Shown here in pieces: positions 21,440-27,533 of a DNA stretch of 56,605 nucleotides. The DNA lies in the NCBI GenBank assembly GCA_028353405.1, contig JAOMOG010000008.1, forward strand, positions 1 through 56,605. Direction: 5' to 3'. Made by a program: the position numbers and the translations under genes. This DNA comes from Candidatus Poseidoniaceae archaeon (GTDB taxonomy: Archaea; Thermoplasmatota; Poseidoniia; Poseidoniales; Poseidoniaceae). Below the pieces are notes generated by a model. That model saw only the letters and a list, made by a program, of their open reading frames with translations, was not told where the DNA came from and did no database searches. How positions within the stretch are numbered: position 1 is the stretch's first letter; every line of letters begins with the position of its first letter.

Positions 21440-21826
21440 ATGCCGACCTGCCGTCACTGCTTCAGCACCTATCCACGTAACTATTTCATTCATGGAGTTG
21501 GCCCTCGAGCGCAAGTGTGTGTTCGTTGCGGAGTTGAGAAAGGTTTGGTGACAGAAGAAGAGGCTCCTACTCTATTCAACAATTCTCAAAAGAATGCTAG
21601 ATTTGGTATTGTTGCACGAAGATACAGTTTCTTTCTCTATCTGCCAATGTTGTGGGTTTTCTGGTCTGTTTCTCTGTCCGAAGTAAATCCATGGGGAATG
21701 TATTTTCTCATTGCTCTAATCTTGTTAACACTATTGGCGCCTCTTTGGTTCATCTATCGTACTTCCAAATTCTCGGGAGATATGGCTCGTTTAACACCTG
21801 CCTATGATCGTCCTGAAGGACATTGA
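21440..21826 (+). CDS. Zinc-ribbon membrane protein, unknown
   Basis: 128 residues. Cys4, Cys7, Cys27 and Cys30 form a C-x2-C ... C-x2-C zinc ribbon, followed by two hydrophobic segments (about 61-79 and 86-107) and a charged tail. The ribbon probably faces the cytoplasm together with the C-terminus. No family recognised beyond the ribbon. It follows pabBA by 37 bases and may be co-transcribed. Confidence 0.65.
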   Translation: MPTCRHCFSTYPRNYFIHGVGPRAQVCVRCGVEKGLVTEEEAPTLFNNSQKNARFGIVARRYSFFLYLPMLWVFWSVSLSEVNPWGMYFLIALILLTLLAPLWFIYRTSKFSGDMARLTPAYDRPEGH

Positions 21827-22532: not shown

Positions 22533-23816
22533 TCAAGATTTTGCATGGATTTTAAGAACATCTCCATCACTTAATTCGTGATCTGCACCAACCACTCTTC
22601 TTGTCCTTCCATCCACTCCTTTGATGAATCCGTCTCCTAAGTCAGAATGTACCTTGTAAGCAAGAGGTTTCGCCTGAATAGCATTCGGAACGACGAAAGC
22701 ATCTGGTAAAACTTTACCATCACCATCAGTCCAATGTAATTCATCTTGTACTGGATATACTACAATGTGGTCTAATTCATCAAAGAGAACTTTGTCAATA
22801 ATTGTTGCAACGCCTGTTCCACCATTAGAACTCAAACGTTCTTGCATATGTGAGAGTGCTTTGATTTGCGCCTCGTTCAATCCTTTATCTCCCTCTATTG
22901 TGAACGAGTCTTGACCAGTGTTGTAATTGATCAAACCTGCTGATTGTGCCCTGCGTAGAGCCAATTCAACATCTGCCATACAAGCAACTATTGTTCCGTT
23001 TGCTGTAATTTCCTTTAGAACTCCTTTAGGTGCGATATCGCATTTATTTGCTGCAATATGAATTGGGAATAAGTAAATGCGAACATGTACTGCCAGTTTC
23101 GTGATTATTTCATCTTGCCAATCCCAAGGTTGTCCACAATCGCCAACTTCATTTTTGAAATCATCAAATGCGTTAGCAACCAAATTTAGAGTAGCACCTA
23201 ATCCAGTTAATCTTTCATGAATAAATGAAATTAAGCCCTTCTCACCTTCAGCTTGAACTCTTCTAACACCTCTTTGCCAACCATCGTTTAGTAAGCCGGA
23301 GATCCAAGCATCTAATTCATCTGCAAGAAACTCAATCTCTTGATTGATTCTCAACTGAGCATCTTCTTTTGTTTGACCAGGTCCGAGCGGATTTCCTTCA
23401 ATATCTGTTGATCCTGCTGCATCGACTACCTGAATTAACGCATCACTATTTGCTAAATCAGCTAAGAACGCGTTACCTCTTCCTTTGCCTTCACTGGCGC
23501 CAGGAACTAAACCTGCTACATCGACTAAGAAACATGGAACTAATCTACGGAATCCAATACAACTCCCTGTTCTTGGCTGACATATACTGCCTTGACGCGG
23601 GTCGTCTTCGCTGCTTGTTGATAAGCGCCCTTCGGACTCCAGTCGTTGTCTGATATCCTTGCAAGGGCATGGTTTACGCGCTTCAATAAAAGCAACACCT
23701 ACATTTGGTTCTATAGTACAAAATGGATAGTTTGCAATGTCAACCTTTGCAAGTGTTGCAGCACTGAAAAATGTTGATTTACCAACATTTGGTTTTCCTA
23801 CAATACCTATTCGCAT
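22533..23816 (-). CDS. ychF: YchF/OLA1-family translation-associated GTPase/ATPase, archaeal type
   Basis: 427 residues. P-loop GKPNVGKSTFFSAAT at the start, switch region NYPFCTIEPNVG, G3 motif LVDVAGLVPGASEGKGRGNAFL, and NKCD near residue 270 as the base-recognition loop (YchF proteins often prefer ATP). The last ~70 residues, DELHWTDGDGKVLPDAFVV and GDGFIKGVDGRTRRVVGADH, form the TGS domain. An extended loop CPCKDIRQRLESEGRLSTSS with several Cys near residue 50 is typical of the archaeal group. Acts on the ribosome; precise role debated. Sits 16 bases downstream of the oxidase-like gene in the same unit. Confidence 0.93.
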   Translation of the reverse strand: MRIGIVGKPNVGKSTFFSAATLAKVDIANYPFCTIEPNVGVAFIEARKPCPCKDIRQRLESEGRLSTSSEDDPRQGSICQPRTGSCIGFRRLVPCFLVDVAGLVPGASEGKGRGNAFLADLANSDALIQVVDAAGSTDIEGNPLGPGQTKEDAQLRINQEIEFLADELDAWISGLLNDGWQRGVRRVQAEGEKGLISFIHERLTGLGATLNLVANAFDDFKNEVGDCGQPWDWQDEIITKLAVHVRIYLFPIHIAANKCDIAPKGVLKEITANGTIVACMADVELALRRAQSAGLINYNTGQDSFTIEGDKGLNEAQIKALSHMQERLSSNGGTGVATIIDKVLFDELDHIVVYPVQDELHWTDGDGKVLPDAFVVPNAIQAKPLAYKVHSDLGDGFIKGVDGRTRRVVGADHELSDGDVLKIHAKS

Positions 23817-23831
23817 TGGGGAATTCCCCCT

Positions 23832-25967
23832 TCAGGCCTCTGAGATAAGGCTGACTAAATCTTTCTTTGTTCCTGATGTATCTAGGCCTAAAGAAGTTGC
23901 AAGTTCAACTAATTCAGCCTTCTTCATCTTGTTGAGTTGTACTTTGGAAGGAGTTCCAACTTCCGATGTTGATTCTTTAGCAGCATTCGCTTTACGAATT
24001 TTTGCAATTGCAATCGAAAGTTCTGGTAAGTTGATTTGTCCATCTCCGTCAATGTCGATAGCAGCAATAAGAGAATCCATTTCCCACGGCGGTAGGTTTG
24101 CAACCTTTGAACTCTTCAATGCCATTTGGAATTCATAAGCATCTATCATACCAGAATCATCTAAATCAATGGACTTGAAAAACTGGAAGATGGTTTGTCC
24201 TGAATCTGCTAAATAATCTGCAAGCATTGTTAATTCATTACCAGTCTCTTTTGATTGTTCTTCTTCAACCACTTCTTCTTCTGGGAATTCGGTGACTTCG
24301 TCATCGTGTAGTGCTGTGGAAACTGCGATTACAGTGCTTCCACCTTCGTCTTCCTCCATTTCCCCTACTATCAACGTGGTATCGACTCCAACTCCTCGTC
24401 CTAGCAGTGTGCGAATTGTTGTTGTTCCATCTCCTAGGTTGTAGGTGTCAATATCCGAAACAGATGTTTGAGAATGATTTGATGTGATCTTTGAAGCACT
24501 TGTTCTTATGACGACTAATGTAGCCAATATTGCGCCTATTGCAGTGAAATAGAATAATGCTGCTCCGACTAAATAGAATCCTTCTGTTTGAGCAACTGCA
24601 TCTTCAACACCTGAATTTGCAACCGCTTGCATTGTAAAGTCTCCAATCAGATTTGTAATTGTAGATGCGAAGCCTCCGAATAGAACAAACCAAACTGTTA
24701 GGTTGGCTTTACTTGGTTCGGAAAGTTCTTTGTTACAAGCCAATGGATGTGAAATGTAAGCTCCTGATAATATCATCAAACCACCAACAGTCCATAGGAA
24801 TCCCATGTCAAGGGTTGTTGCCATATCTCCAAGTTGTCCTGTTCCGAGGAATACGTCCATTCCAGTGAAGAACGCTCCAATTGCATAGAGAGGTAGCAAT
24901 ACCATTGCAAGTGTTGCCGCAAGAGCCCCTGGACTCTTGACGATTGCAGATGTATTGCCACTAGCCGTGAATAGTAAGTTGACGCTACCTGCGATTATTG
25001 GCAGTAGTCCAAGTGTCATTACGATTGCACCAAGGTTGAGTAATGTTGTAGAAGCACTCGCTGAAGCAATGAAGAATGGTGGAAGGGTAATGAATAGCAA
25101 GAATAGATTCGCTTGGCGCATTGAGGCAGACCAAATTGGTATACCTGATGTCATCGGGATAATGTGGTATGCTGCAGAGAATATTAGAGCCAATATTACC
25201 CACGAACTACCCATTTGACCCGCAAGCCAAACTATTTGCGTTGAGCCGGCAAGTTCGCCAAAGAATCCTAAGAACATTGACAAAATAAATGTCAATAGAG
25301 CGAATATCAGAAACCAAGCACTGGTTGAAACTTCTTCATCACCTCTATTTGCAACTGTTAGTAAGACGTTTACAAATAATCCAGCAACGATCATTGCAAC
25401 TGCCAATTTGGAAACTGCATCGATTAATACAATATTTATTGCACTATCTATGTCTTGCCCTAGCAGTCCTAATAGCGATGGTAATAATGAAGCAAAGATT
25501 GTTGTTAAGGTAAACAAAAATGCTGAAAGTGATGCGCTTGCTTCACTTGCCATTTTCCCATTGCTGCTACGTGAAATTGAAACAAGTCCTGCACCAACAA
25601 GAGTTGAAAATACTGCAACTCCAAGGAATTTTGTAGTGGTTGCAGTTAATGCATCACCATTATCGTATGCCCATCCAATACTTGCTAGAGAATCTAGCGC
25701 TGTTGGATCGTAGTGGTGCCACAGTCCGAGGAATCCACAAATTGAAGAGAATACGAACCATAGCATACCGAAATTAATCCATGTTCTAGCACCGCTACCT
25801 GGCTTGCTATCGAATAAGTCCACTAAACCTGCTGGGGCCTTATTGAGGAAGAATAGTGAAAATTGGCGCATTGCCTCAGACATGCTGCCTATTCCTTTTT
25901 CTGTGTAATTCGCGGTAAACCACATTGCGATTACTGTTATTGCAATTCCAAAAAATATTGATTCCAT
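23832..25967 (-). CDS. Heme-copper oxidase subunit I-like membrane protein lacking ligands, with EF-hand pair and SAP domain
   Basis: 711 residues, about 12 transmembrane helices in residues 1-485. Helices 250-400 can be laid on cbb3 oxidase CcoN without gaps: AAYHIIPMTSGIPIWS parallels MYYFVPKxxxRPVYS, and LLPIIAGSVNLLFTASG parallels MPSWGGMINGLMTLSG. Every metal-ligand histidine is replaced: the CcoN GHN position is Gln251, the PHH pair falls at PFFIA (~297-301), the HVH pair at Leu-Asp-Met (~386-388), and the helix II His is Thr (~109). Residues ~510-580 are an acidic linker. Two canonical EF-hand loops follow, DLDDSGMIDAYE (601-612) and DIDGDGQINLPE (638-649), then a SAP-like segment (678-711). 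GGAGGTG sits just before the ATG. It cannot be a working oxidase as written; calcium-responsive sensing is an inference. Confidence 0.6.
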   Translation of the reverse strand: MESIFFGIAITVIAMWFTANYTEKGIGSMSEAMRQFSLFFLNKAPAGLVDLFDSKPGSGARTWINFGMLWFVFSSICGFLGLWHHYDPTALDSLASIGWAYDNGDALTATTTKFLGVAVFSTLVGAGLVSISRSSNGKMASEASASLSAFLFTLTTIFASLLPSLLGLLGQDIDSAINIVLIDAVSKLAVAMIVAGLFVNVLLTVANRGDEEVSTSAWFLIFALLTFILSMFLGFFGELAGSTQIVWLAGQMGSSWVILALIFSAAYHIIPMTSGIPIWSASMRQANLFLLFITLPPFFIASASASTTLLNLGAIVMTLGLLPIIAGSVNLLFTASGNTSAIVKSPGALAATLAMVLLPLYAIGAFFTGMDVFLGTGQLGDMATTLDMGFLWTVGGLMILSGAYISHPLACNKELSEPSKANLTVWFVLFGGFASTITNLIGDFTMQAVANSGVEDAVAQTEGFYLVGAALFYFTAIGAILATLVVIRTSASKITSNHSQTSVSDIDTYNLGDGTTTIRTLLGRGVGVDTTLIVGEMEEDEGGSTVIAVSTALHDDEVTEFPEEEVVEEEQSKETGNELTMLADYLADSGQTIFQFFKSIDLDDSGMIDAYEFQMALKSSKVANLPPWEMDSLIAAIDIDGDGQINLPELSIAIAKIRKANAAKESTSEVGTPSKVQLNKMKKAELVELATSLGLDTSGTKKDLVSLISEA

Positions 25968-25980: not shown

Positions 25981-26253
25981 TCAATCCAATAGGACCTCTC
26001 CCAATAAGTTGGAAACTATCACAGCAACTCCTGCGATTAATCCAATCAAGTAATACCAAATCCCTGAACCACCCAAGTTACCAATCAATGGTATTAGGTC
26101 GCTGAGTAATGGAAGGGAATCCCATCCAAATACATTAGAAAAGAGTGCTAATAGGCCAATTACGCCCACTAAAAACAAAGTCAATAGTACGCGGCTAGTT
26201 GATGGTTCTCCGTTTCCGGTGGTCACATCTGGTAGTGTCGTAGTGTTCGTCAT
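25981..26253 (-). CDS. Small two-helix membrane protein preceding the oxidase-like gene
   Basis: 90 residues from the ATG at 26253, which has GAGGACG just upstream; a GTG at 26298 would add 15 residues but lies near the predicted transcription start. The first ~20 residues are Thr/Gly-rich and polar, then two hydrophobic helices (about 22-43 and 62-84) separated by a Leu/Pro-rich loop. No family recognised. It ends 13 bases before the oxidase-like gene and is almost certainly co-expressed, so it may be a small accessory subunit. Confidence 0.6.
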   Translation of the reverse strand: MTNTTTLPDVTTGNGEPSTSRVLLTLFLVGVIGLLALFSNVFGWDSLPLLSDLIPLIGNLGGSGIWYYLIGLIAGVAVIVSNLLGEVLLD

Positions 26254-26322
26254 CGTCCTCGTCTCCAAATTGACCCCATAGGGGTCATTCTGTTCCACTT
26301 GGGGAGCGGTAATAAGTATTGA

Positions 26323-26366: not shown

Positions 26367-27533
26367 TCACAATGAACGCAAATTTGCTAGAACGTTGCCT
26401 CGGCGACTTTTTGAGATTCCTAAAGGGGTCGGCAATGTCTCTTCTAAGGAAATTTCAGTTGCCCAAATTGTTTGGCATTGGCATTCTAGTCCACCGAATT
26501 CTCGTAAATCTCCTGAAACTGCATAACGCTCTATTGCAGCAACGACATGCGAATCACATTCACCGCAGTTATGGGCTCCGCGAACTTTTCCTCCAGCCGT
26601 CGGGTGAACGATAAGGCGGGAAATTTGATCTGCATCACCATTGAATCCACCATCGGGATGGATGGAGGGGTGAGCTCTCTTGATCATCTCGACCAGTGAC
26701 CATAACCACGGAGGACGATACTCGTTATTGCGGTGTAATCTATCAATGATTGTACCTCTTTGGATATTCATTGGATTAACGGAAATCTCATCGCTCTTTT
26801 CTGCAACTGCTTCAATCCACTTTACACTATGATTCAATGCATCAGCTTCAGACATAAATGGTGGTTTAAACATTAGATATGTTTTAATTCTGATATTGAA
26901 TTTTTGCATATTAACAACTGCCCGCTCCCAAGATTTTGTTGTAAACCCTTTATTGACATGAAATCTTAATACTTCATCATCATAGGCTTCTAAACCAATT
27001 GCTACTGCAAAGTTTTGATTAATTTTGGTTGCCCATGCTAACTTTTCTTCGGTCATTTGTTCACAGCGACTCTCGACTATCAATTCCTTACCGAGCCGTT
27101 GACAATCTGCTAATACAGTCTCTTGGAATTCCACAGGGATTTCCCTATCTTCAAAGAGACTACCTGAAGTGTAAACCTTAACCATTTGATGGTCTTCGAA
27201 ATCATTGAACCTCTGTTTTGCATATTGCCACTGTGAATGTAGGTTTTCATTGGTAACATCATCACGAGTGTCATTGAAATAGCCGCAAAAAGTACAACCT
27301 GAACTCCACCACCAATGGCAACCTTTGGTTCTAAGAATTACTGTAACTGCGCTACATGGAGTACCATCTGCAGTTGTTTCTGGAGTATAATATACGGTTG
27401 CTGGTTCATCTGCATCCCATGATTGTTGGCGTTCTTTTGCCCAAGGGGTATTCGCTGGAGCTTTTATCAAATCATGAATACGGACTCCTTTGTTACTCTC
27501 GCCGAGCAAAGTAAGTGAAACGGGCTTGTTCAT
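26367..27533 (-). CDS. raSEA: Archaeosine synthase beta subunit RaSEA, radical SAM enzyme
   Basis: 388 residues with GGAGGAAGAG before the ATG. The radical SAM cluster motif is the non-standard C-x7-C-x2-C in CHWWWSSGCTFCGYFND, the hallmark of this archaeal family. Later motifs VYTSGSLFEDREIP, LIVESRCEQM, VAIGLEAYDDEVLRFHVNKG and KTYLMFKPPFMSEADAL fit the TIM-barrel core, and a Cys-rich C-terminus (HNCGECDSHV, LECQCQ) is also present. With ArcS, RaSEA converts the lysine adduct of preQ0 at position 15 of tRNA into archaeosine. ArcS is not in the window. It lies downstream of the decarboxylase gene after a 70-base gap. Confidence 0.88.
   Translation of the reverse strand: MNKPVSLTLLGESNKGVRIHDLIKAPANTPWAKERQQSWDADEPATVYYTPETTADGTPCSAVTVILRTKGCHWWWSSGCTFCGYFNDTRDDVTNENLHSQWQYAKQRFNDFEDHQMVKVYTSGSLFEDREIPVEFQETVLADCQRLGKELIVESRCEQMTEEKLAWATKINQNFAVAIGLEAYDDEVLRFHVNKGFTTKSWERAVVNMQKFNIRIKTYLMFKPPFMSEADALNHSVKWIEAVAEKSDEISVNPMNIQRGTIIDRLHRNNEYRPPWLWSLVEMIKRAHPSIHPDGGFNGDADQISRLIVHPTAGGKVRGAHNCGECDSHVVAAIERYAVSGDLREFGGLECQCQTIWATEISLEETLPTPLGISKSRRGNVLANLRSL

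Follow-up and report, generated by a model that had tools for sequence, protein, structure and literature searches.

Heme-copper oxidases (HCOs) are textbook redox machines, and to our knowledge no described family keeps the HCO catalytic scaffold order-wide and under strong selection without its metal ligands. The DNA stretch analysed here (the window, 56,605 nucleotides; contig JAOMOG010000008.1, our C53, of assembly GCA_028353405.1) comes from a 65.9% complete genome of the lineage Poseidoniaceae (Marine Group II), and encodes on its minus strand an HCO-like protein, here named HCOL, whose membrane half resembles CcoN, the catalytic subunit I of the C-type (cbb3) oxidases, and has lost the histidines that hold heme and copper. 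The halobacterial family fam02696 is a distant relative of HCO subunit I and is often encoded near cbb3 or NorB genes (PMC9258230); HCOL is likewise an archaeal lineage-specific distant HCO relative, and one haloarchaeal hypothetical protein, whose membership of fam02696 is not known, gave no match to it (hhalign, 0.8%). An analogy only, from an unrelated fold, is offered by the iRhom pseudoproteases, which combine a membrane enzyme fold without catalysis, a regulatory function and added domains (PMC6451368). The marine archaeal group in question had no cultured isolates as of 2019, according to PMC6336850. In the literature searched, which was that outside subscription journals, no description was found of the HCOL family or of EF-hands in subunit I of A-type ATP synthases. 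Below, f1, f2 and f3 label families (f1 is taken as Poseidoniaceae and f2 as Thalassarchaeaceae, both presumptively), g1, g7 and g15 label genera, and G and L numbers denote genomes and loci.

23832..25967, minus strand: HCOL, an open reading frame of 711 amino acids (aa) with an ATG start, for which homologues were found
24483..25967, minus strand: HCOL membrane domain (residues 1-495), an N-terminal helix plus 12 helices, cbb3 subunit I-like

The helix count and the helix borders were taken from a low-confidence AlphaFold model. When a profile of 41 HCOL members was compared with 177,635 distinct Protein Data Bank (PDB) sequences, five matches were obtained at an expect value (E) of 10 or less, and all five were CcoN (E 1.1e-7 to 9.3e-5, over as many as 355 profile positions); two of them bear the name cbb3 subunit I, and the other three, named 'cytochrome-c oxidase' only, gave alignments with the same CcoN motifs. 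The CcoN chains compared were those of PDB entries 3mk7, 9g6b, 8smr, 9g83 and 6xkw. The hhalign results indicated a score of 120.3 (98.4%) over 315 columns between HCOL and a six-sequence CcoN alignment, compared with 12.1 for the reversed control, 34.8 for the best of 30 block-shuffled controls, and 108.7 for CcoN against type B, a pair of true homologues used as the yardstick. The likeness to CcoN, which the sequence-only reading had drawn by eye, was borne out by the PDB matches and by these scores. Comparison with one window protein, an MCM helicase, gave no match and, as this is not a membrane protein, no useful control. That the resemblance is generic membrane-protein similarity is barely credible: the single-sequence scores are indeed weak, COX1 being reached at E ≤ 1 in 4 of the 41 members, but CcoN alone was found among all PDB chains, the reversed and shuffled controls were far lower, and the agreement runs motif by motif along the chain.

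Relatives from family f2, such as L042 (genome G057), bridge the window protein to the oxidases. L042 matched COX1 at 27.8 bits (E 1.5e-6, residues 59-433; curated cut-off 34.8), and in a tblastn search against plasmids it matched cbb3 subunit I at 2e-8, all of the feature-named matches listed being cbb3-type subunit I; L044 gave no match in the same collection, and no HCOL was found in viral contigs. The best long pairwise matches of L042 were the plasmid C-type oxidases of Paraburkholderia and Sinorhizobium (L132-L134; 23-26% identity), divergent proteins to which HCOL scored 128.4 by hhalign and which, unlike HCOL, adjoin genes annotated as cbb3 subunit II. In the tree, all HCOL sequences grouped together (100/100) and did not fall among the nine C-type rows (88/92); their stem has a length of 2.05 changes per column, which is a long branch, and the tree is unrooted. 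We regard homology of the HCOL membrane half to the C-type catalytic subunit as established at the level of sequence, and over its 12-helix core HCOL can be assigned by that homology to subunit I of the HCO superfamily.

The ligand columns were read from a MAFFT alignment of 69 homologues (57 plus 12 added loci; 67 distinct; 47 from f1 and 22 from f2); for transmembrane helix (TM) VII the list below gives a further register, set by eye from the PDB-profile matches. The sites in the window protein are as follows.

25638..25640, minus strand: T110, site of the low-spin heme His of TM II (alignment)
25215..25217, minus strand: Q251, site of the CuB His of TM VI (alignment)
25071..25076, minus strand: F298-F299, site of the CuB His pair of TM VII (PDB-profile register, by eye)
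24804..24812, minus strand: L386-D387-M388, site of the H-x-H of TM X that binds heme b3 and heme b (alignment)

By MAFFT the TM VII CuB positions fell on A301/S302 instead of F298/F299. No His was present in any of the 69 homologues at the TM II position, at the two positions of TM X or at the first of the two in TM VII; the second TM VII position carried it in one. Position 251 carried R in 27, Q in 14, H in 14, K in 4 and other residues in 10. None of the six conserved HCO histidines for the two hemes and CuB is thus conserved in HCOL, and the position of the cross-linked Tyr of TM VII, which we take to be defining for cbb3, is filled by V, I, L or F (S once). A second, seeded alignment gave the same picture at TM II, VI and VII and left TM X unaligned. 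The earlier observation that the metal-ligand His are gone from the window protein therefore stands, with the replacements confirmed at T110 (placed at about 109 before), Q251, F298/F299 or A301/S302, L386 and M388; orthologues that keep the ligands would have refuted it, and for the heme ligands none was found (0/69), with a TM VI copper His in 14/69 and a TM VII copper His in 1/69. Homology to CcoN together with ligand loss is well supported by these alignments, and HCOL probably contains neither bound heme nor bound copper. It is highly improbable that HCOL has a remaining redox role with heme or copper held by other residues; the His at 251 in 14 members and the family-specific H84 and H268 (37/37 f1 members) and position 129 (18/20 f2 members) might serve such binding, but there is no His column common to both families and no His at any heme-ligand position. 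A buried R251-D387 pair was also considered as filling the empty site and was kept as a lead only, R-D being the commonest combination (22/69) and Q-D the next (13).

The scaffold itself has been retained. The alignment runs across most of the 12-helix core. Scaffold positions at which HCOL agrees with CcoN include W70, P88, R133, T204, R208, W218, W247, P277, S280, P323, N330, T334, P408, W426 and G431. In 12 pairs, residues 1-500 gave ratios of nonsynonymous to synonymous substitution rates (dN/dS) of 0.034-0.097. Purifying selection on the membrane half is strong, and HCOL is not a decaying gene. HCOL or fragments of it were found in 55 of the 59 Poseidoniales genomes, and the four without it (G008, G014, G020 and G030) had no full YchF match either, YchF being encoded next to HCOL, so that the locus is missing from those assemblies. 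In the phylum, 80 of 292 genomes matched HCOL, all of them Poseidoniales, and among the rows listed from this draw (192 unmatched rows are unlisted) G030 was the sole Poseidoniales genome without it; in a class-wide draw HCOL was present in 38 of 39 Poseidoniales genomes. The sister family f3 gave no match in 21 genomes at E ≤ 0.1, and in three f3 stretches of 2.8-4.2 kb no homologue of HCOL or of its neighbours, the small two-helix protein and RaSEA, adjoined YchF. With the fold residues kept but the heme ligands lost in every member examined, HCOL is likely to be a re-used scaffold and very unlikely to carry out redox chemistry. As to function, we tentatively favour the reading that HCOL is a cofactor-free, non-redox relative of CcoN with a regulatory or sensing function in the membrane and, in f1, a putative Ca2+-binding tail. 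If confirmed, HCOL would be a respiratory pseudoenzyme.

The conserved polar or charged residues within the helices bear on a different use of the same scaffold, as a channel or transporter for ions that Ca2+ would gate via the tail. Such a function would draw on N200 and N330 (both 69/69), E142 (67), D371 (59) and D387 (47), and on the presence of R, K, H or Q at position 251 in 59/69. We nevertheless consider it unlikely, as S241, Y252 and Y318 of CcoN, presumably part of the cbb3 proton path, are not conserved in HCOL, and N330 and T334 may be structural, their conservation being about as high in the redox-active CcoN. Nor was a convincing transporter match found when the 41 members were searched against Pfam and NCBIfam: besides COX1 and PRK14485 (cbb3, E 0.009), the best E was at least 0.028.

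Apart from the lost ligands, HCOL differs from CcoN in its C-terminal tail and, in the poor structural model, by an extra N-terminal helix. The tail has three recognizable parts.

24363..24455, minus strand: residues 505-535, within which lies the tail motif TTIRxLLxxGxxxDTxL (alignment)
24000..24194, minus strand: EF-hand pair, residues 592-656, with loops at 24132-24167 and 24021-24056 (Pfam, loop pattern)
23850..23936, minus strand: SAP domain, residues 678-706 (Pfam)

Mean K+R counts for the loops in order were 3.6, 0.3, 0.9, 0.2, 1.2, 0, 0.7, 0.1, 1.25, 0.3, 2.2 and 0.25, and 2.4 for the tail; since these charges alternate according to the positive-inside rule, the tail is placed in the cytoplasm. 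The outer loops L2 and L12 are acidic. The motif TTIRxLLxxGxxxDTxL directly follows the last helix and is common to f1 and f2, with T530 invariant in 57 members. Pfam identified the EF-hand pair at residues 592-651 (4.8e-9, above cut-off), and both loops, DLDDSGMIDAYE (601-612) and DIDGDGQINLPE (638-649), match the 12-residue loop pattern, so that the pair is predicted to bind Ca2+; the SAP domain was found at 3.3e-7 with 30.2 bits against a cut-off of 23.9. Among the 57 members, Pfam detected the EF-hand pair in 35, all from f1, and two f1 members without a match are cut off by a contig end. Eight of the ten added f1 loci carry two loops by the strict pattern, L116 carries one by the strict pattern and a pair by a looser one, and L117 (g15) has none by pattern and one visible by eye; EF pairs were present in HCOL of 7 of the 8 f1 genera sampled. 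SAP was found at E ≤ 0.001 in 22/57 members, including L042 of the f2 genus g7, and by eye it is missing from the set of 655-659 aa proteins of genus g1 and from most of f2. The two EF-hands and the SAP domain first read from the window are therefore real by Pfam cut-offs in this protein, the former being confined to f1, whereas a nucleic-acid-binding tail as a core trait of the family has to be given up, as SAP occurs in 22/57 members only.

An anchoring of nucleic acid to the membrane through the SAP domain is accordingly quite improbable as the role of HCOL. The domain does pass the Pfam cut-off at the cytoplasmic end of the protein and recurs in the distant member L042, and the L115 tail ends in what by eye resembles a helix-hairpin-helix; against this stands its absence from the ends of the g1 655-659 aa set and most f2 proteins. 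By eye, the helix-hairpin-helix-like segment of the L115 HCOL (862 aa) lies beyond the EF-hands. The relative encoded at L039:6001-8301, plus strand, has two extra EF loops ahead of the usual pair.

The EF module of the window protein also strongly matched other proteins of genus g1 (E to 1e-35), which are subunit I of the A-type ATP synthase, with the EF-hand pair between the soluble N-terminal half and the membrane half. The membrane domain differs from that of HCOL, being V_ATPase_I in subunit I, whereas the 88-residue EF-hand modules are closely similar (36-61% identity to the window module) and have a similar flanking segment (ELVMLSDYL...PPWEM...LPELDI). All 25 subunit I frames examined (L125-L129 and L174-L193), which were chosen because they matched, carry the EF pair; two of these were identified as subunit I by Pfam (V_ATPase_I plus EF-hand_7) and one by a PDB match to V-type subunit I. 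An order-wide search with PF01496 matched 23 g1 genomes, 19 of them with frames of 777-847 aa, of which 13 were seen with the EF pair and six were judged from length; the other g1 frames are those of G001 and G323 (694 aa), a truncated one of 575 aa and one unlisted. Thirty other subunit I loci showed no EF pair: those of G001 and G323, five from f2, and 23 from f1 genera other than g1, among which two frames are truncated (433 and 594 aa). The 88-column tree of the EF modules was poorly resolved and did not group the subunit I modules. Copying of the module from HCOL to subunit I may be the simplest reading and is plausible, since EF modules occur widely among f1 HCOL proteins and were seen in subunit I only within g1. 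A module common to the two proteins offers a directly testable link between Ca2+ and the ATP synthase in marine archaea.

The genes around HCOL are the following.

25981..26298, minus strand: small two-helix membrane protein, partner gene (synteny, alignment)
22533..23816, minus strand: YchF-related GTPase, downstream neighbour (Pfam, synteny)
26367..27533, minus strand: archaeosine radical-SAM protein RaSEA (TIGR01210), upstream neighbour (synteny, family match)

The closest named relatives of HCOL in a single-sequence query were from Candidatus Poseidoniaceae, Poseidoniales and Euryarchaeota metagenome-assembled genomes, at 81-98% identity. The small two-helix gene lies upstream of HCOL across a gap of 13 bases, preceded by the RaSEA gene, and its real start is probably an internal ATG, as judged from the alignment; the YchF-related GTPase gene lies 15 bases downstream. 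The small gene and RaSEA adjoin HCOL in 57/57 loci compared, and YchF does so in 55/57, the remaining two being a single contig ending there. The small two-helix protein, earlier proposed to be expressed with HCOL, is thereby upheld as the product of a partner gene, and for YchF, named along with it, the adjacency is kept in 55 of 57 loci, although both YchF and RaSEA look like ordinary housekeeping neighbours. CcoO or CcoP genes, unlike in the oxidases, are not beside HCOL in these 57 loci, the neighbours being RaSEA, the small protein and YchF.

This constant partner, the mostly single-copy, near-universal and strongly selected occurrence of HCOL in the order, and the resemblance of its EF module to that of subunit I would also suit a structural component of, or an assembly factor for, some other membrane complex, such as an oxidase or the ATP synthase. 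We rate this alternative as unlikely. The 27 window proteins scanned with Pfam include no oxidase or ATP synthase family. In the 57 loci, where no search was aimed at cox or atp genes and where many flanks extend over only about 1.5 kb, HCOL has RaSEA and YchF as its immediate neighbours. In addition, the 23 f1 loci from other genera encode a subunit I that lacks the EF module.

Returning to HCOL as a cofactor-free regulatory or sensing relative of CcoN, the oxidase scaffold would have been kept while the heme, copper and cross-linked Tyr positions were replaced. HCOL and the small two-helix protein encoded upstream probably form a complex. On the outside, a conserved acidic face of HCOL, made up of loop 12 and the DPTALxSLxSxGYS loop, may receive a ligand or partner, and a signal would then pass from there to the cytoplasmic tail with its TTIRxLLxxGxxxDTxL motif; in f1 the tail would have gained a putative Ca2+-binding EF-hand pair. 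As a closely similar module is present in subunit I of many g1 genomes, the output of HCOL or its control by Ca2+ may concern the energy-converting membrane, and any sensing role or action on energy metabolism is to be understood as a proposal of this kind. The module in both proteins hints at calcium control of energy membranes; a further step seems unlikely to us, namely that in Poseidoniales the catalytic core of an oxygen reductase became a cofactor-free receptor and that in Poseidoniaceae one Ca2+ module, having moved between this receptor and subunit I, serves as a calcium control circuit for the respiratory membrane.

Several results weigh against this reading. At the level of homology, the membrane half of the window HCOL alone gave no Pfam oxidase match, with a domain of unknown function only at E 0.49, and no HCOL member reached the COX1 cut-off (best 27.9 vs 34.8 bits). 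Against alignments of type A, type B and a NorB-like pair, hhalign gave 40.6, 36.1 and 22.9, values near or below that of the best shuffle, so that the tie of HCOL to the oxidases rests on the C-type. AlphaFold gave poor models both for the whole protein, from eight close sequences with 85-98% identity to the first (predicted local distance difference test, pLDDT, 37.4), and for the tail, whose model was weak (pLDDT 56.0). At the ligand sites, His at 251 was found in 4/47 f1 and 10/22 f2 members, and further His lie close by, at 111 in 3/69 (L041, L042 and L123), 384 in 7, 383 in 3, 387 in 1 and 302 in 1; the TM II His of L041, L042 and L123 was considered as a retained ligand and rejected, being one residue off the aligned CcoN position. 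The EF loop pattern occurred in none of the 22 f2 members, and the tail evolves faster than the membrane half, dN/dS reaching 0.34 over residues 501-570 and 0.17 over 571-660. HCOL is mostly single-copy per genome, yet G010, with a listed contamination of 5%, holds two near-full-length copies. In G001 and G323, close relatives of the window's genome, subunit I is without the EF module, so the link to the ATP synthase is not universal even within g1.

Genuine HCOs are also resident in these genomes. Of the resident PF00115 proteins, six were placed (L061-L063, L110, L111 and L124), five with type A and one with type B. An origin of HCOL by duplication of a resident aa3 oxidase is not favoured, given scores of 120 against CcoN and 40.6 against type A. 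L110:397-2073, minus strand (G044, f2), encodes a divergent type-B-like HCO besides the aa3-like type. In the window, a small protein is encoded at 21440-21826 on the plus strand, next to a PAP2 gene; it begins with a cysteine-rich stretch (CxxC) and contains two hydrophobic segments, and no Pfam or NCBIfam family was found for it above cut-off. Elsewhere in the window's genome, the protein of L002:274-2070, minus strand, has by eye CxxC motifs, several EF-hand loops and two hydrophobic segments, and weakly matches the HCOL EF module.

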